Source of the DNA: Marinicella marina
Lineage (GTDB): Bacteria; Pseudomonadota; Gammaproteobacteria; Xanthomonadales; Marinicellaceae
Assembly: GCF_030065545.1 (NCBI RefSeq)
Contig: NZ_JASJNC010000001.1
Span: 496,001-560,000, forward strand
DNA length: 64,000 nt
Direction: 5' to 3'
The position numbers were made by a program, and so were the translations under genes. Below the pieces are notes generated by a model, which had not been told where the DNA came from, ran no database searches, and was given only the letters and a program-made list of their open reading frames with translations. Positions 11,610 through 60,156 of the stretch are shown here, one piece after another; within the stretch, counting starts at the first letter, position 1, and each line of letters opens with the position of its first letter.

Positions 11610-11642
11610 TTAATCAAAGCCGTTATTGAAAATCACATCATC
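11610..11642 (-). other. C-terminal DVIFNNGFD tail motif
   Basis: The last ten residues, DDVIFNNGFD, match in pattern (D-hydrophobic-IF-x-x-GF-acidic) the tails of the proteins at 18704-19900 (DLIFFNGFE) and 54806-57556 (DVIFSTGFE). It may be a sorting or processing signal; function is not known to me. Confidence 0.6.
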
Positions 11643-13202
11643 CTGGTTAAAATCAACTCGCAATTCAACATCGGCATACATCACCCCATTGGTATCGGTG
11701 GTGATGTCCAAAACGGTGATGATTAAATCTTTGTTGTTTGACCAAAATGCGTTAAAAGTTTGAGACTCCCCAGAGGCCAGATTGGCAGCAACCAGTGATG
11801 TGTTGTAACCGGTTGGGCTGTTGGTTGAGGTTACCATCAAGCGATCTTGTCCGTCTCTGGTACCGCTGTTGATGCCAGCATCACGGTTGAAGTTGATGTG
11901 GATGCTTGATGAACTCTGATCACCGTCAATGCTGTGTACCTTGATTAGGTTATGCTGGTTGGCAGTGGCTTGATCATAATCAGCGATGCCGGTGATTTGG
12001 CCGCGCCAAGTATCCTGGCCAATGCGCCAATCACTCTCATAAAAAGTCAGCTCTTTGTTTTCATACCAGCCAAATTTTGAACTTTTGACCGCATTGAAGC
12101 ACATCCTAGGTCCATCGTCACTGGAATAAGAGTAGCCCATCATGCCTGATCTGTCAGCATACTCATTGGAGCCAATACCCGAGTGCCCCATGCCAAAATT
12201 ATGGCCCAGTTCATGCATTTGCGCACTGACATAGGTGGCCCAGCGGTTGTTATATGTGGATGAGGCGCCATTGATTGAGGCGTAAGCTATCCAGCCACCT
12301 TCGGTATTCGGAGGCAGGGCAAACATGATGTGATCGGCTTGGGCATATAAACTACCAAACAATTGATTGCCAGCAGCGACCACAGCATTCCTTACCGTAC
12401 CCCTTGATTCACCTTCGACATCGATGTTGATTGTCAGTTCTACCACGCCGTTGGTGATGTTTTGCCCTTGTGCCGGCATCATCTGTAACTGTCCGTAGGA
12501 ACAATTATCAAACTGAGAGGTCATGTTGACCTCATCGCCAGCGGTACCAAAGACCGAATCAGCCAAAGCAGCTGGGGTGTCGGTGGTGCTGAAATCATTG
12601 GCTGTGACATGAATCATCAAAGCAGTTCTTTCGTTGATGCCACCACCGGCTGCCAACAAAGTTGATTCATCGGCCACGGTCAACGCACTTATGTTGGCAT
12701 CGAATTCAGCCGCATCAAAAAATAGCGACCACTGGGATTGTGGGGATAAGATGATTTGATCGGATGTTTGCTGAAATTGGCTGATGCTGAGTTGTGGCTG
12801 TGCCGATGTTTTAAGCTGTTGACGAAGCCTGGCTTTGGCGGTGGTTATTTGAGCGGTTTGATGCTTTTTCAGTCCGGTGATTTGAATCACATTATGGATC
12901 AATGCCTCATCAATCAATTGACTGACTTTTTGCTGCTGTTGCAAGAATGCTTGAGTGAGGCCTTGCAGTTGATAGGACAGGCCATTGCTGTACTGACAGT
13001 GTAGGCTTTCGGTGTGTGATGTTTCAGTCTGCTGTGTGGCCACCAGATAGATGCTGCAGCGAATGGTCTCAGGTGATTCTTTAGGTGCTGTCTGTGCTGC
13101 AGCTTGGTTAATGAAAGCCAACAGCATAGTCACAAAAATTACCACTAATTGATGACGCTGCAGTTGGGTTGAACAGGTGGTTGGGTGGGATTCTTGGTTC
13201 AT
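11610..13202 (-). CDS. Exported zinc metallopeptidase (gametolysin-like zincin) with GFD tail
   Basis: 530 residues. A signal peptide (hydrophobic VVIFVTMLLAFINQAAAQ, about 24-41) is followed by a poorly conserved propeptide-like region. The zincin active site HELGHNFGMGH starts at H330 and MMGYSYS is the likely Met-turn. This H-E-x2-H-x5-G/H layout belongs to the metzincins; gametolysin (M11) is the closest type I recognise. A beta-rich domain follows and the protein ends DDVIFNNGFD. The last residues match the tails of two other exported proteins in this window. Likely a secreted protease. It is divergent from the S9 peptidase gene, with a 287-base shared upstream region. Confidence 0.88.
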   Translation of the reverse strand: MNQESHPTTCSTQLQRHQLVVIFVTMLLAFINQAAAQTAPKESPETIRCSIYLVATQQTETSHTESLHCQYSNGLSYQLQGLTQAFLQQQQKVSQLIDEALIHNVIQITGLKKHQTAQITTAKARLRQQLKTSAQPQLSISQFQQTSDQIILSPQSQWSLFFDAAEFDANISALTVADESTLLAAGGGINERTALMIHVTANDFSTTDTPAALADSVFGTAGDEVNMTSQFDNCSYGQLQMMPAQGQNITNGVVELTINIDVEGESRGTVRNAVVAAGNQLFGSLYAQADHIMFALPPNTEGGWIAYASINGASSTYNNRWATYVSAQMHELGHNFGMGHSGIGSNEYADRSGMMGYSYSSDDGPRMCFNAVKSSKFGWYENKELTFYESDWRIGQDTWRGQITGIADYDQATANQHNLIKVHSIDGDQSSSSIHINFNRDAGINSGTRDGQDRLMVTSTNSPTGYNTSLVAANLASGESQTFNAFWSNNKDLIITVLDITTDTNGVMYADVELRVDFNQDDVIFNNGFD

Positions 13203-18703: not shown

Positions 18704-18748
18704 CTATTGAGTTTGTTCAAAACCATTAAAGAAGATTAAATCAGGCGC
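18704..18748 (-). other. C-terminal DLIFFNGFE tail motif
   Basis: The end of the sugar dehydrogenase-like protein, PAPDLIFFNGFEQTQ, repeats the pattern D-hydrophobic-IF-x-x-GF-acidic. Here four residues (QTQ after the acidic one) follow, so the motif need not be strictly terminal. Confidence 0.55.
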
Positions 18749-19900
18749 AGGGATGCCAACTAATTGATACAGGCTTTCGCCACCCATGATATACAATTCG
18801 CCATCATCACCTTCACCCATGCCTGTTACAGTAAAACTGCCAACCAGTGTGCCCAGGTTGTAACTGTTCCATGAATCATTTTGGCTGGGTTCAGCGGCCC
18901 AAAATTTCCCATCGCACCAGTCAGTATAAAAGTACCACCCGTACAAACCTGGATAATCATTACCACGGTAGCGAAAACCGCCCACTGCTGAACAATTTTC
19001 AGAGCCAGGGATGTCATGTTCCAAAACGGCAATGGGTGAAATTTGATTGGTAATGGCCTGACAAGTGGCATCGTTGGTAAAAAAGGCATCATTGTTTTCA
19101 AAACAAGGCCAGCCATAATTCTGTCCGCCGGCAGAGCCAGATTGTAGGTGATTGAATTCTTCCCAGCGGTCTTCGCCAACATCACCAATAAACAAATCGC
19201 CGTTCAAGCGATCAATTGAAAAACGCCAGGGGTTTCGAAAACCTTTGATCCAAACAGCATTACCAAATGGGTTATCGGCAGGAATGGCATAATTGATATC
19301 TTCAGTAGTTGGAAAATCATCACCATCGACATCTATTCTTAAAATTTTACCCAATAAACTGTTGTTGTTTTGTGGTTCAAATATATTCAAACCACCATCA
19401 CCGGTGCTTAAATAAAGCAAGCCATCAGGACCAAAGTGCAAATCGCCACCGTTGTGGTTTCCGGCTAATCCGGTTATTTTAAGTATTTTATAAGCACTGT
19501 TAGGATCAGCCAAATCAGGGTTGTTAGCAGAAATGGTATACCTGACCAGCTCATTATCGCCTTCATTGTTGCTGTAAAACACGAAGAAGTAACCATTGGT
19601 CTCATGGTCAGGGTGAAAAGCCAAGCCTAACAGTCCTCTTTCACCTCCAGATAAAACCAAAGCGTCAATGTCTAAAAGTGGCTCATTATTGACTTCATTA
19701 TTTTTCACTACCTGGATGGTACCGCCTTGTTCAACCACAAACAGTCTCTGGCTGTTGTCCTTGGCGGAAGTGACGCCAACGGATTGAAAAAAGCCGTTGG
19801 CCACTTCGATGACATCTACACCCACCGGTTGGGCCATGGATTGAAAACCCCACAAAATGTAAATCAGTGCTACGGCTTTGGTTTGCATGTTATTTTTCAT
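18704..19900 (-). CDS. Exported glucose/sorbosone dehydrogenase-like (PQQ-type) protein with GFE tail
   Basis: About 398 residues from the ATG at 19900, which has a ribosome site (CAGGGA); an upstream ATG at 19918 is in frame but less well placed. A signal peptide ends near SMAQ. The mature protein is the six-bladed GSDH propeller: GERGLLGLAFHPD, GNHNGGDLHFGPDGLLYLST with the catalytic-type His, FRNPWRFSID and QNYGWPCFE. Members oxidise aldose sugars with PQQ, though many are uncharacterised. The C-terminus continues to PAPDLIFFNGFEQTQ, sharing the IFxxGFE tail with two other exported proteins here. No PQQ genes are in this window. Confidence 0.9.
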   Translation of the reverse strand: MKNNMQTKAVALIYILWGFQSMAQPVGVDVIEVANGFFQSVGVTSAKDNSQRLFVVEQGGTIQVVKNNEVNNEPLLDIDALVLSGGERGLLGLAFHPDHETNGYFFVFYSNNEGDNELVRYTISANNPDLADPNSAYKILKITGLAGNHNGGDLHFGPDGLLYLSTGDGGLNIFEPQNNNSLLGKILRIDVDGDDFPTTEDINYAIPADNPFGNAVWIKGFRNPWRFSIDRLNGDLFIGDVGEDRWEEFNHLQSGSAGGQNYGWPCFENNDAFFTNDATCQAITNQISPIAVLEHDIPGSENCSAVGGFRYRGNDYPGLYGWYFYTDWCDGKFWAAEPSQNDSWNSYNLGTLVGSFTVTGMGEGDDGELYIMGGESLYQLVGIPAPDLIFFNGFEQTQ

Positions 19901-20083
19901 AATATCCCTGACAGACATCGGTACCCCAGTTCGTGTCTTTGTATTTTATGAATCAGTTTTAGGTGAAGTGAGTGATAAGGTAAATATGAAAAAGTATCAA
20001 CGGTCAATCTTGGCGACTAAACGGTTGATTTTAGGTAAGACACATCGTGGTTGTGTTGGTTTCGGTGTTTCTCAATAAGAAAT

Positions 20084-54805: not shown

Positions 54806-54838
54806 TTACTCAAAACCAGTGCTGAATATCACGTCATT
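54806..54838 (-). other. C-terminal DVIFSTGFE tail motif
   Basis: The protein ends NDVIFSTGFE. This is the third instance in the window of the D-hydrophobic-IF-x-x-GF-acidic tail, on a third unrelated fold. Confidence 0.6.
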
Positions 54839-57556
54839 TTCAGGAATGAAAATGGCGTTTATTTGTTTGTCTCTGTCCATGGTCAGCAAGCATGGGTTGG
54901 TGGCATCAACACATTGTCCTTGGCTGCTTTGCCAGCGATTGAATACATAGCCTGCATCGGGCACAGCCACAAGTGTCAAATTGGTTCCCAGTGGGAAGTC
55001 AAAATCACAGGTTCCCATACAACTCACGCCCTGGCTACCACTCACTGAACCCAATCCACTGACAGCCACGTCCAACAGGATGTTGGGCCCGCCCTGCTGG
55101 TACAAGAAAGCTTCATCATAGCCAGGATGTTCTGCCAAGCCGGTGAAACCCCCTTGGGCAGTAAAGACAATGCCCAGACGTGAGGGTGTGACTGACATAT
55201 CCTCTGTCACACTGGGGTATCGGGCATTGCCACCAAATTGCTGGTTGTTGGTTTGTTTGGATATCAAACTGGTGGTGCCCTGATCAAAGTCGTACAAGTA
55301 CACATCTTCTCTGAAATCATTATCCTCTGACAACGCCACTTCGCTGGTGGAGTAGGCTACATAACGCCCCGCATTAGATAGGCTGAGATAGGACAGACCA
55401 TTGTTGGACTGCAACGGATTGCCGTTGGTATCTTGGCTGACTAAATGCAGCAATTGCGTGGAGCGCTCGTACAGCAGCGCTTGATAAGTAAAGGTGTTCT
55501 CCAAATAGGTGTCGTTGGTCAAATTGGTGGCCAAAGTCAGAAAAGTGATGACGTTCGCATCATCATCGATTTGAGGAAAAAATGATTCTTGGTTGCCTTC
55601 TACCAGGGTTGGCGTTTGACTGACGCGGGTGATATCCCCCGCTGGCCAATCGACCACGAATACATCGTATGTGAGGTTGGTGTCTGTATTGACCAGGTTA
55701 TCAGCCAATGAAGCAAAAACAATACTGGTATTGTTGGCCGATCCATTGATTTGTGGCTGAAGGGAATCTGCATTGCCGGCCACACCACTTTCATTTTGGC
55801 TGACCAGGCTCAACGATGAATCCACCGGATCATAAAGGTAAGCATCAGAAAACGTATTGGTGTCTTCGTTGGTCAAGTTGACTCCGGATTGAAACACCAC
55901 CATACCAGCGTCATTGACGCTGGGAAAAAACCCGGCGGCGATTTGTGTGTATTGTTGATTGATGCGATCATATAAAAACACCTGAAAATCACCCAAATCA
56001 ACTGTGGCATTGGGTTGAAAAAATCGTGAGGTGAAGGTGATGTATTGGCCAGAAGGTGAGATGTCATGTGAATTTTGAGCCACATTGAAACCTACCTTTT
56101 GGTGTAGGTTGGTGTCTCTGTTGAGCAGGAACAAGTCATTGATGGCGTCCTGGTCGTTGGGGGTTGTGAGGTTGGTGGTGGTACTGTCATAGATGACCCA
56201 GTTGTGATCGTTGTTCATCTTCGGAAGACCCACATTGGCAATGATGGTGTTGGGATTGAAAGCCAATGGATTAATCAGTGAAGTTTGTTGTTGTGGCAAG
56301 TCATGAACATACAGCTTGCTGTAAGGTGAAAAATCTGATTCATTCAGTAGGTTGGATGACGTGATTAATAACAGTTGGTCACCATCGGCAGAGAGGCTGT
56401 AAGGAAAGGCCGATACTGTGATGTCTGGAAACTGCGGGTCAGGTGTGAATGCCAGGATGTCTAAATTCTCGCTCTGAGTGTCATAGATATAAATATCATT
56501 CTGGCTATTGGTGTCCTCTGTTAACAACACATTGGAAGTAGAAAAAATGATTTCACTGCTGTCGGCTTTGAACAGCACGCTGAACACATTGGGTGAAGTA
56601 AACTCTTGCCCATTCGGATCTAGGTTGATGCGGATGTTTTGAGTGCCATTGAAATAAAATAAATCACTGCGGTCATTGTTGTCATTGGCGACCAGGTCGT
56701 TATTTCGAGATTCATGCACAACCATGCCGCTGTTACTGACACCCAACTCCGATGCACCACTGAATTGGCTGTCTGCGGTTGGGTTGCCATTGGGTTGCAC
56801 AGTGACCAGTGTCGTTGAGCCAGTGTCTCTATCCAGTAAATAAACATTGCTGCCGACTACGGATGCATCGATCAAATTATCGGCTCGTGAGGCGAATGTA
56901 ATGTACCTGCCGTTGGCCGACACACTGAAATCCCTGATGTCGTCTTCGGCTTCTTCAGTCTGATCAAATGACAGACTCAACAAGGTATAGCTGTCATTGT
57001 CCAGATTTTTGAGGTACAGGTTTTCTCTGAAATTATTATGTAAAGGATCAATTTCTTCCCGAGTTAAAAATATGATTTGATCTCCCGCATCACTGAGAAA
57101 AACATCAGACTCCACTTCAAAAACGTCTCCTTGATCATCAACACTCACTATTTCCAATTGTCCGGATTGCATGTTTTTTAAATACAGGTAAGTGTCAAAG
57201 CTGTCCAAGCTTCGTGCTGTGAATGCCACCAGGGTACCGTCCGAGGTGGGTCGGGCTGGCGAGATGCTGAGAAAATCCAGTTGTTGTCCATTGGTCTGTT
57301 TGTTGACCATTTGCACCGTGTCCATTAATGTGTCATAAAGGAACAAGTCGGAGCTCTGATTGGTGTCATCGGCGACAATGTTGGACGCACTGCTGGTGAA
57401 AGCGATGAAACGTCCGTTGGCTGAATACACTGCGTCATTGACACTGGCATTCTGAATGGAAGGACTCTGTGCTTCTGGTTGACTCAACCAATGTATGGCT
57501 TGAGCATGGATAAATTGGCTGACACACAGTGACAGAATAAATACGACTGATTTCAT
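54806..57556 (-). CDS. Exported PD40/TolB-like propeller protein with GFE tail
   Basis: 916 residues with a signal peptide (KSVVFILSLCVSQFIHAQA). It contains many WD40-like/PD40 beta-propeller repeats of the form (I/V)xFxSxAxxLxxxDxN...DxYxxD: FIAFTSSASNIVADDTNQSS, ITFASRADNLI and VFASLADNLVNTDTN. The end (~830-905) is a bacterial-repeat/InlB-B-like domain (NLTLVAVPDAGYVFNRWQSS, INAIFIPEN) with two Cys. It closes with DVIFSTGFE, the tail shared with two other exported proteins here. Probably surface or secreted. It lies 180 bases downstream of a winged-helix/TPR regulator on the same strand. Confidence 0.83.
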   Translation of the reverse strand: MKSVVFILSLCVSQFIHAQAIHWLSQPEAQSPSIQNASVNDAVYSANGRFIAFTSSASNIVADDTNQSSDLFLYDTLMDTVQMVNKQTNGQQLDFLSISPARPTSDGTLVAFTARSLDSFDTYLYLKNMQSGQLEIVSVDDQGDVFEVESDVFLSDAGDQIIFLTREEIDPLHNNFRENLYLKNLDNDSYTLLSLSFDQTEEAEDDIRDFSVSANGRYITFASRADNLIDASVVGSNVYLLDRDTGSTTLVTVQPNGNPTADSQFSGASELGVSNSGMVVHESRNNDLVANDNNDRSDLFYFNGTQNIRINLDPNGQEFTSPNVFSVLFKADSSEIIFSTSNVLLTEDTNSQNDIYIYDTQSENLDILAFTPDPQFPDITVSAFPYSLSADGDQLLLITSSNLLNESDFSPYSKLYVHDLPQQQTSLINPLAFNPNTIIANVGLPKMNNDHNWVIYDSTTTNLTTPNDQDAINDLFLLNRDTNLHQKVGFNVAQNSHDISPSGQYITFTSRFFQPNATVDLGDFQVFLYDRINQQYTQIAAGFFPSVNDAGMVVFQSGVNLTNEDTNTFSDAYLYDPVDSSLSLVSQNESGVAGNADSLQPQINGSANNTSIVFASLADNLVNTDTNLTYDVFVVDWPAGDITRVSQTPTLVEGNQESFFPQIDDDANVITFLTLATNLTNDTYLENTFTYQALLYERSTQLLHLVSQDTNGNPLQSNNGLSYLSLSNAGRYVAYSTSEVALSEDNDFREDVYLYDFDQGTTSLISKQTNNQQFGGNARYPSVTEDMSVTPSRLGIVFTAQGGFTGLAEHPGYDEAFLYQQGGPNILLDVAVSGLGSVSGSQGVSCMGTCDFDFPLGTNLTLVAVPDAGYVFNRWQSSQGQCVDATNPCLLTMDRDKQINAIFIPENDVIFSTGFE

Positions 57557-57735: not shown

Positions 57736-60000
57736 TCAGGGGTTGCCTTGATAGAGGGTATTGAGCCATTGTTGGTCCTCTGATTGCCAAAATTCATTGG
57801 CATTTTTTTGACTTTTTAAAGCTGCTTTAAGCGCTTCTTGGGTTTGCCCTGTCGCGGCCAACCATTTTGATTTTAATAACAGGAATGGGTAATCCGCCGG
57901 CGATTTTGGTAGGTCATCAACCGCATTGATGATGCTTTGAGCGTGCGCATAATTTTGCTTTTCAATGTGGAGCTCCAACAGTTTATTGTTGATGTCGTGA
58001 ATGGTTTCGTAATCGCTGGTTTGTAAAGCCAGCGCTTTGGTTTGGTGGAGTAAATCTAGTGCTTGTTGGCTGTTATTTTGGTGCATTAAAACCCGTGCGC
58101 GTTGCACATTCAGTCTGGGTTGTAGCCTGACTTCATGGCTGTCATTGATGTGGGTTTGAATGTTTTCGATGAGCGGTTGTGCTTTTTCAATCTGTCCTTG
58201 GTCCAAGGCCAGGTCCAAGGCCAGTAGTTGGTGTTTAAATAGGCCTCTCTGAAAATTATTATCGGAGGACAGGCGCAGGTATTCACTCAATGCAACTTCA
58301 GCTTGAGGCCATTGTTTGCGTTTTCTGGCAATTTCTATTTCAAATTGTTGGGCAGCCATCAGCATGGCGAAATAGTCAATTTCAATGGCAATTTGTCGCA
58401 TCTCACTCATGTGTTCCCATGCTTGACTGAGTTGACCGTTGGACATTTTGACATAGGCCAGCTCATTCAGTGCAGCACCCACACCGAGGCGGTAATCAGC
58501 TTCGCGATAAATGGCAATGGCACGCATCAAGTAATCACTGGCTTGATCATACTCTGCTTCGTGATTGGCAATGCGAGCCAGCAATGAACTGGTCATGGCA
58601 GCACTCATTAGATCAGACATGTTGTTGTAATGCTGGTAGGCCAGATCAGCTGCCTGTTTGGCTTCCTCAGTTCGCCCCACTTGTAACAGTACACTGCCTT
58701 TGCGGTGCCAGGCCTTAGACAACATGTCCAGATCGTATTCATCCTGTAACTCAACTATCACTTCATCCAGTAATTGTAATGCATCATCGTAGCGATGTAG
58801 GGCTGTTAATGGATAGCTGATTCCAATTTTAATCGGCAGCAACTGGCCGTTGTTTTCTTCAGGGAATTGATTCAATAAAGATTGGTAGACGCTGACAGAT
58901 TCATTGTGTAATCCCATGGTGTCAAGAATATCTGCATAAAGAGATTGGGCGGCGATTTGTATCGTGGGGTAGGCTGCATTATTTTTCAACAGTTCGAGGG
59001 TTTCCAAACTGGTTTCAGTATCGCCCATTGCATTTTGAACTTCGGCCAATTGCAGTTGGCCGAGTACAAATTCAGGGCTTTGCTCAATCACCAATTGAGT
59101 ATAGTTTTGTGCCTGGTCCAGTAATCCCTGATCCATTGCATCCAAACTGCGCAGGTATAATTCCAATACATGCACATCTGCTGGCAACATTTGAGTGATG
59201 CGCTCGGCTTTGCTGTTCAGCTTCGAGTTTTCAAATAACCATTGATGACCGTCTATCATCACCGCAGTCAGGTCATCAGAGGTGAATGATTGTTGTACTG
59301 TTTGTCCAGCTTGTTCCACACTGAGGCTCAGGAAGTAGCCGTTCTCTAACTGCAACAATTCACTGTTAATCACCTGTAGTTCTGGATTGATACGCTGGTA
59401 ATTGGCCACAAACTGATCAATGTCCAGGTGCCGAGGTTTGTCTTTGATGCCTATGATGCGGTTGTTTCCAGATTGTTTGAATAGTTTTTGCAGCAGTTGT
59501 TGGCTGCTGTTGTCTAGCCAGTTTTGTTCTTGATTGTTGTTATCGGTTTGTAGCCACAACACCGGTTGAGGTGGAACTTGTTCGGCCATAGATGTTTCTT
59601 GATTGAAGAAAAACCAAGTCAATAGGGCCAGAACAGGAAGTATGGTGGCCCATTTCAAGCCCCTGTTCTCTTTTTGTTCTGGTTCACTTGATGTCACTAA
59701 AATGACCTCTGGTATCCATTGAAAGCCCTTGCCATAGGCTGTTTTAATGATGGTTCGATCATCATGTTCTGCAAAGGTTTTACGGATTTTGGAAATGGCT
59801 TGATCGATTGAGTTTTGGGTGACGATTTTATCGTTCCACACTTCATCGATGATTTGTTCTTTGGTAATAACCTCACCTTGTTTTTGTAAAAACAACAGCA
59901 AAACCTGGTAGTTGGTCTTGGTGATTTCAATCTCTTTGCCCTGAAAGAACAGTGCTTGTTTTTTTGAATCCAGGGTAAAGCCCAAAAATTGGTACTTCAT
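57736..60000 (-). CDS. Membrane-anchored winged-helix regulator with TPR sensor domain
   Basis: 754 residues from the ATG at 60000 (MKYQFLGFTLDS, a family-like start); an in-frame ATG at 60021 adds seven residues. OmpR/CadC-type winged helix (about 1-95; TKTNYQVLLLFLQKQGEVITKEQ, then SIDQAISKIRKTF). One membrane helix (about 121-139, ATILPVLALLTWFFF). The rest is periplasmic, mainly TPR repeats from about 270 (AQNYTQLVIEQSPEFVLGQL, DALQLLDEVIVEL). CadC/ToxR-like one-component regulators have this membrane-spanning layout. Targets unknown; the nearest candidate is the PD40 gene downstream, 180 bases away on the same strand. Confidence 0.87.
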   Translation of the reverse strand: MKYQFLGFTLDSKKQALFFQGKEIEITKTNYQVLLLFLQKQGEVITKEQIIDEVWNDKIVTQNSIDQAISKIRKTFAEHDDRTIIKTAYGKGFQWIPEVILVTSSEPEQKENRGLKWATILPVLALLTWFFFNQETSMAEQVPPQPVLWLQTDNNNQEQNWLDNSSQQLLQKLFKQSGNNRIIGIKDKPRHLDIDQFVANYQRINPELQVINSELLQLENGYFLSLSVEQAGQTVQQSFTSDDLTAVMIDGHQWLFENSKLNSKAERITQMLPADVHVLELYLRSLDAMDQGLLDQAQNYTQLVIEQSPEFVLGQLQLAEVQNAMGDTETSLETLELLKNNAAYPTIQIAAQSLYADILDTMGLHNESVSVYQSLLNQFPEENNGQLLPIKIGISYPLTALHRYDDALQLLDEVIVELQDEYDLDMLSKAWHRKGSVLLQVGRTEEAKQAADLAYQHYNNMSDLMSAAMTSSLLARIANHEAEYDQASDYLMRAIAIYREADYRLGVGAALNELAYVKMSNGQLSQAWEHMSEMRQIAIEIDYFAMLMAAQQFEIEIARKRKQWPQAEVALSEYLRLSSDNNFQRGLFKHQLLALDLALDQGQIEKAQPLIENIQTHINDSHEVRLQPRLNVQRARVLMHQNNSQQALDLLHQTKALALQTSDYETIHDINNKLLELHIEKQNYAHAQSIINAVDDLPKSPADYPFLLLKSKWLAATGQTQEALKAALKSQKNANEFWQSEDQQWLNTLYQGNP

Positions 60001-60156
60001 GGTGGGTCGTTTATTTGGCATATTTAATTCTATTATTTTAGCAGGTTATCGTTTAACGGGTTGTTTTTTTGACCGTGGATTGTTGCAAGTTTTAGCGTTA
60101 TTTTAATCGCCACAAGGTTTGAATTGGCGGTTGTTGGTGGACTCAGATAAAGACCT

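Follow-up and report, generated by a model that had tools for sequence, protein, structure and literature searches.

Three exported proteins encoded in a 64,000-nucleotide stretch of the Marinicella marina genome (contig 1, C1:496001-560000; hereafter the window) end in the same nine-residue tag, and these three tails belong to a genome-wide system. The tag probably serves as an address label that directs proteins to the outer membrane or beyond it. Judged from sequence comparison, we see nearly an even chance that it would be a cargo tag for proteins of the cell surface or medium, handled by one subclass of type II secretion system. This subclass, a type II system with a canonical GspL, is called class A here.

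Three tagged proteins in the window

A preliminary description had pointed to a common tail on three exported proteins of unrelated fold. Direct translation placed all three tails at the positions given there, each on the minus strand, and Pfam assigned the carriers to Peptidase_M11 (63.6 bits, cut-off 21), GSDH (119.9 bits, cut-off 25) and PD40 with an InlB-like repeat, confirming that the folds are unrelated. The tags and their carriers were as follows.

11610..11639, minus strand: tag DVIFNNGFD and stop codon, as the last residues of the M11-type zincin (translation, DNA pattern, own-genome profile match)
11610..13202, minus strand: tagged exported zincin, 530 amino acids, Peptidase_M11, signal peptide (translation, Pfam)
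18704..18742, minus strand: tag DLIFFNGFE, then QTQ and stop codon, on the sugar-dehydrogenase propeller (translation, profile matches)
18704..19918, minus strand: tagged exported GSDH-type beta-propeller, 404 amino acids (translation, Pfam, structural model)
54806..54835, minus strand: tag DVIFSTGFE and stop codon, on the PD40 propeller (translation, DNA pattern, profile match)
54806..57556, minus strand: tagged exported PD40 propeller with an InlB-like C-terminal repeat, 916 amino acids (translation, Pfam)

The open reading frame (ORF) of the zincin (11610-13202) ended in NQDDVIFNNGFD and that of the PD40 propeller (54806-57556) in PENDVIFSTGFE, each directly followed by the stop. The sugar-dehydrogenase propeller ORF (18704-19918) ended in PAPDLIFFNGFEQTQ, with three residues between the motif and the stop; its tail, read from the window to the stop, was PDLIFFNGFEQTQ. 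A stop-anchored DNA pattern had two matches in the window and none in any of 100 shuffles; the sugar-dehydrogenase tail was missed because of its three extra residues. Within the tag of the PD40 propeller, I, F, G, F and E were invariant across six homologs. The S9, M14, GGT and BNR proteins of the window ended differently from the tag, in agreement with the preliminary description, from which the S9 label is taken. No NCBIfam or Pfam model matched the tails of the three proteins (E<=1 and 0.1), and an Rfam scan of the window gave no match.

Extent and consensus in the genome

When a profile was built from the three window tails, it matched 53 places in the M. marina genome (3.46 Mb, 23 contigs), 46 of which ended no more than 20 residues from a stop; a profile built from these 46 tails matched 78 places. 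For the motif counts, 1.364 Mb of the genome with 1,219 ORFs was used, comprising the stretches with every profile match, the window, and 400 kb of contig 1 chosen before the matches were known; tags in the remaining ~2.1 of 3.46 Mb were detectable through the profile only. The broad motif (D-[LV]-I-F-x-[ND]-G-F-[ED] or a close variant) was found at 77 C-termini in this set, compared with 0.42 per shuffled set and none in reversed sequences. It formed the last nine residues in 50 of these proteins and was followed by 1-5 residues in 19 and by 6-21 in eight. The strict motif matched 57 times, within 21 residues of the C-terminus in 52 cases (0.005 per shuffled set, none reversed). Among the 46 profile tails, F at position 8 was present in 46/46, I at position 3 in 45/46, D at position 1, G at position 7 and E/D at position 9 in 44/46 each, F at position 4 in 43/46, and N/D at position 6 in 42/46; H was sometimes found at position 6, as in the variant DLIFKHGFE. 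The residues after the tag, when pooled, included 14 K/R and 12 D/E of 139.

The tails of ten further proteins had no NCBIfam match at E<=0.001, and the 46-tail profile drew five chains from the PDB with E values of 0.22 to 2.7, none significant. One of these, 4k6l_G (ArtA, a pertussis-like toxin subunit; E=0.22), showed an 11-residue resemblance to the tag in its mature N-terminal part. No paper on this tag was found among the matches listed in searches of open-access text, where matches to the tag string fell in papers on unrelated subjects. Two near-identical tagged fragments lay at contig ends (C12:1-371 and C7:3484-3843), probably a repeat that broke the assembly.

Carriers and export signals

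Signal peptides were assigned by a rough heuristic, which 117 of the 326 ORFs in the pre-chosen 400 kb also passed; a looser version was passed by 52 of 57 complete public ORFs, but also by 156 of the 326. By the stricter version, 65 of the 77 tagged ORFs had a signal peptide. The other 12 comprised three whose start is cut off by the edge of a contig or stretch, seven with plausible Sec N-termini by eye, and two twin-arginine proteins (C12:255845 and C18:210373, both DUF1501 in Pfam, one with a Pfam TAT match just below cut-off). The carriers thus appear, from their N-termini, to be exported by Sec and in two cases by the twin-arginine translocation (Tat) route. The use of both routes would place the action of the tag at a step after the inner membrane. 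According to the preliminary description, the tail would be a coincidence if the motif were no commoner at C-termini than at random positions or in non-exported proteins. That was not the case in the pre-chosen 400 kb: six of its 326 ORFs were tagged, and 6/6 tagged compared with 111/320 untagged ORFs had a signal peptide (P=0.002).

The tagged proteins of the genome were diverse. They included peptidases (M11, M64 and M14), endonuclease I, Amidase_3, endonuclease/exonuclease/phosphatase, DUF1028 and DUF4397 proteins, and propellers of the lactonase and FG-GAP types. Of ten tagged proteins scanned, three exceeded the cut-off of choice-of-anchor family Q and one that of family I (508.9 bits against 300). 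In a set of 20 tagged proteins, eight had no Pfam match at E<=1e-5.

Conservation, portability and structure of the tag

At the DNA level, 72 tags yielded 71 distinct 27-mers, and tag-to-tag codon identity was 0.73, 0.85 and 0.445 at positions 1, 2 and 3. Where both members of a homolog pair were tagged (174 pairs), the tag was 74% identical, compared with 20% for the preceding 15 residues and 41% overall. The codon-position identities, together with a tag conserved beside a free linker, indicate from sequence comparison that selection is on the peptide, not on the DNA. The tag was also found joined to, or missing from, otherwise similar proteins. An untagged sugar-dehydrogenase paralog stopped at the propeller end, and in a relative of the PD40 protein (L228) the propeller led directly into the tag, the InlB-like repeat seen in others being missing. 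A contig search with the sugar dehydrogenase found no relative.

The preliminary description had the tail lacking a membrane helix, and hydropathy bore this out: with an 18-residue window over the last 60 residues, only one of 77 tails exceeded 1.6 (at 1.68), and the median was 0.82. A model of the sugar dehydrogenase of the window reached a mean pLDDT (predicted local distance difference test) of 70 from an alignment of seven sequences. Residues 390-404 had no structure and a pLDDT below 50, a low confidence that the shallow alignment may also explain, while the rest matched structures of HHIP and of a pyrroloquinoline quinone (PQQ)-dependent sugar dehydrogenase. On this model, the tail is probably unfolded.

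The tail had been described as C-terminal. This held for 52 of the 57 strict copies in the genome and failed for five: two lay directly behind a predicted signal peptide (C1:205893-209762 and C17:97476-97964) and three within large proteins (C12:328192, C18:80589 and C20:42113). In other genomes, the tag stood behind a signal peptide at L127 and inside a long ORF at L116. Tandem pairs of tags were observed at the C-terminus of C17:340917-342209 and at L124 and L236. Such non-terminal and tandem copies favor docking of an exposed peptide and disfavor recognition of a free carboxyl end. As far as its placement in the sequences goes, the tag looks like a docking peptide, not a purely C-terminal signal.

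Taxonomic distribution

A search with the stop-anchored pattern over 84,980 species genomes returned 91 stretches. Among the 80 listed of these 91, 57 had Lysobacterales labels (Marinicella, Dokdonella, Pseudofulvimonas, Rudaea and others), one was Wenzhouxiangella (Chromatiales in NCBI), four were Alcanivoracaceae, and 18 were labelled merely Gammaproteobacteria, Proteobacteria or Pseudomonadota. Tails in L224, which has an Alcanivoracaceae label, and in L201 were identical to tails in the family of the window, showing that at least some of the taxon labels are imprecise. All 81 matches in these loci ended at true stops (TGA, TAA, TAG).

Tag counts in other genomes were six-frame profile matches whose C-terminal position was not checked singly. 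By this count, the profile matched at E<=0.1 in 67 of 151 genomes sampled from the order (Lysobacterales), and each of the 16 members of the genus had 27-63 matches. In a sample of the class, two of 369 genomes matched at the strict threshold of E<=0.003, both of them Lysobacterales. Every genome of these two samples in which the tag was found is a member of Lysobacterales, and the consensus was unchanged in other families of the order.

Association with type II secretion

The preliminary description had suggested looking for a protease or transport gene that accompanies the tail. A co-occurring transport gene was found: in the order sample (n=151), GspL (PF05134 at E<=1e-10) was present in all 41 genomes with at least five profile matches and in 44/110 others. 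No co-occurring protease or sortase was found among the three families searched: rhombosortase and C13 peptidase did not track the tag, and exosortase, by matches near the cut-off, seemed not to. Within families, GspL was present in 24/24 tagged versus 0/1 untagged genomes of family f1, in 4/4 versus 0/20 of family f12, and in 1/1 versus 2/23 of family f8; stratified by family, the association gave a chi-square of 29.5. At the genus level, all 17 tag-rich genera were among the 34 of 64 genera with GspL (P=1.7e-6), a value from which shared descent inside a family is not removed. In a sample of 33 genomes from the family of the window, tags occurred in 32 and GspL in 31. The sole untagged member of this family in the order sample, from another genus (G019; 4.7 Mb, two contigs), matched neither GspL nor GspD.

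A GspD tree of 21 rows separated class A from a second clade, class B, at 100/100. The five tag-rich genomes examined each had a GspD copy in both classes. The class A clade also held G037, G086 and G073, and the class B clade G039, G053, G060, G007 and G063; G092 and G027, having no match to the class A query, were outside the tree. Two GspD copies over cut-off were found in 5/5 tag-rich genomes compared with 3/20 others searched, and GspD was over cut-off in all 12 tag-bearing genomes searched. In M. marina, the class A GspC-GspF genes (C19:102775-108258) lay between two tagged genes, and GspC had T2SSC and PDZ domains. No evident reader gene was seen among the neighbours of the type II genes. 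Look-alikes of gspL, gspM and gspN were located apart from gspC-F, at C21:275,400-279,000 (L275:14382-19230), GspL alone being confirmed by a model; a large membrane protein adjoining them had, by eye, the look of a resistance-nodulation-division (RND)-type exporter.

Several results weigh against a class A system as the handler of the tag. In one genome (G518; 94% complete, 360 contigs), the tag profile matched 44 times and GspL was missing at E<=0.01. Class A systems were present without tags in G037 and G086, indicating that the system is independent of the tag and that its presence is insufficient, and 23 of 24 genomes in family f9 had GspL together with fewer than five tags. Seven genomes with 1-3 matches had no GspL, yet GspD was over cut-off in 7/7; nearly all genomes have some type II system, so the necessity of one was weakly tested. 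Further, in 69 homolog pairs just one member was tagged, which variants (e.g., DLIFKHGFE) or cut ORFs partly explain. Use of the tag thus comes near to requiring a class A system, whose presence alone does not suffice.

Candidate processing enzymes

Rhombosortase (TIGR03902) was over cut-off in 12 of the 151 genomes, none with more than two tags, and thus in none of the 28 that had at least ten; scores 2-10 bits below the cut-off were seen in four tagged genomes (G028, G108, G143 and G150). Rhombosortase was rejected as the reader for not tracking the tag. C13 peptidase (PF01650), with no match in M. marina, one positive among 16 genus members and five among the 28 genomes with 10 or more tags, was rejected for its scattered presence. 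Exosortase (PF09721, E<=1e-4) was found in 14 of these 28 genomes, including M. marina, by short matches near the cut-off, so that absences may be misses; it is unlikely to be the tag reader.

Proposed function and alternative explanations

In the preliminary description, the tail was likened to a sorting, anchoring or processing tag. The part that survives is a portable sorting or anchoring tag, given the exported and unrelated carriers, the conservation of the peptide, homologs with and without the tail, and the co-occurrence with type II secretion; no co-occurring protease or dedicated sortase was found among the three families searched. In the favored interpretation, carriers would cross the inner membrane through Sec or, in two cases, Tat, and then fold in the periplasm. 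The exposed tag would dock on a class A type II component or a nearby adaptor, and docking would single out the folded protein for transport across the outer membrane. Recognition may involve an extended peptide with two aromatic anchors (F4 and F8) and an x-[ND]-G turn, because the tag can also stand behind a signal peptide, between two domains or as far as 21 residues before the C-terminus. A stronger claim, that the tag is a transferable linear type II signal working at either end or between domains and read by the class A system of Lysobacterales, appears rather unlikely to us.

Alternatively, the tag could be a surface anchor: the protein would leave the cell independently of the tag, by type II secretion or another route, and the tag would then dock on a receptor at the outer surface. 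The tag sits at the anchor position of the one choice-of-anchor I and three choice-of-anchor Q proteins, related bacteria have a class A type II system without the tag, and both the tolerance of position and the unfolded tail of the model suit a docking peptide. However, no receptor family was found in a search limited to four known families, and the co-occurrence points to the secretion system. We consider such an anchor quite possible, although we lean against it.

A processing signal, cut within the tag by a protease or transpeptidase (e.g., at an Asx-Gly bond, as by a legumain-type enzyme) that releases or links the protein, would suit the N/D at position 6 with the following G and the dominance of C-terminal placement. 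It is improbable, since neither rhombosortase nor C13 peptidase tracks the tag, exosortase matched in half of the genomes with 10 or more tags, H also occurs at position 6, and cutting a tag behind a signal peptide or between domains makes little sense. We give equally little credence to a structural role, in which the tag would be the detached first strand of a MAM-like jelly-roll and pair, by strand addition, with a beta-sandwich in the same protein or in a partner. The internal copy at C18:80589 (L163) does precede a stretch that closes with a Reelin or MAM-like match, and in several carriers a jelly-roll-like domain stands, by eye, just before the tag; however, propellers and beta-helix proteins that lack such a domain also end in the tag, and just one of the five non-terminal copies begins a jelly-roll-like stretch. 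Coincidence, or a DNA repeat read at gene ends, has a negligible probability and was rejected, being contradicted by the shuffled and reversed controls, the near-absence of repeated 27-mers, the low third-position identity and a consensus shared across the families of the order.

Comparison with known systems

The tag resembles GlyGly-CTERM (TIGR03501) with its rhombosortase in that a single short C-terminal signal is common to diverse exported enzymes, among them M6, nuclease and protease types. It differs in having no glycine pair and no membrane helix, and rhombosortase does not track it. Passages of PMC3237569 describe GlyGly-CTERM/rhombosortase genomes as generally having type II secretion as well and tie no particular type II subclass to GlyGly-CTERM, whereas the nine-residue tag marks one subclass. 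The tails of the PEP-CTERM/exosortase system likewise occur on diverse exported proteins in many copies per genome. PEP-CTERM consists of a PEP motif, a membrane helix and a basic end; the tag has neither the motif nor the helix, the pooled residues after it form no basic end, and only half of the genomes with 10 or more tags had an exosortase match. Type IX cargo also has a C-terminal signal, Sec-dependent export and an outer-membrane step. However, the type IX C-terminal domain is about 80 residues long, whereas the tag is nine residues without a folded domain. Choice-of-anchor families I and Q (NF038117, NF041518) include four tagged proteins, and their members' anchors differ, as judged from the family name; these models describe carrier domains, not the tag, and no NCBIfam model matches the tail itself.

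Type II cargo is the closest in route, with Sec or Tat first, diverse folded enzymes and a type II system in the genome. It differs in that no general linear signal is established, and the tag would be one; in a passage of a review (PMC5449463), the recognition signals of type II cargo 'have not been elucidated'. If the favored interpretation is true, the tag would provide a nine-residue handle on this choice of cargo; on the stronger claim of a transferable linear signal, it would be the first simple portable signal for the type II pathway. It would also be a readable label for surface and secreted proteins across an order of environmental bacteria, so that an exoproteome could be listed from sequence, and so short a tag could be tried for enzyme display or export.

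Neighbouring regulators

A further gene of the window lay directly upstream of the tagged PD40 propeller.

57736..60021, minus strand: winged-helix and TPR regulator, not a tag carrier (Pfam Trans_reg_C and TPR)

In the pre-chosen 400 kb, four of five Ser/Thr kinases (P=0.0007) and 4/4 extracytoplasmic function (ECF) sigma factors were within three genes of a tagged gene, which may mean that tagged proteins have dedicated regulation. The recurring untagged families beside tags in the 80 listed public loci were mainly regulators. The neighbours of tags in G005 and G092, with one to two matches each, were uninformative, the ORF calls in GC-rich sequence being poor. Gene pairs of an ECF-type sigma factor and a Ser/Thr kinase were observed beside tagged genes in contig 1:1-400000 and on other contigs of M. 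marina. In the sequenced parts of this genome that were examined, homologs of the winged-helix/TPR regulator at C21:36445 and C23:8377 also adjoined tagged genes.
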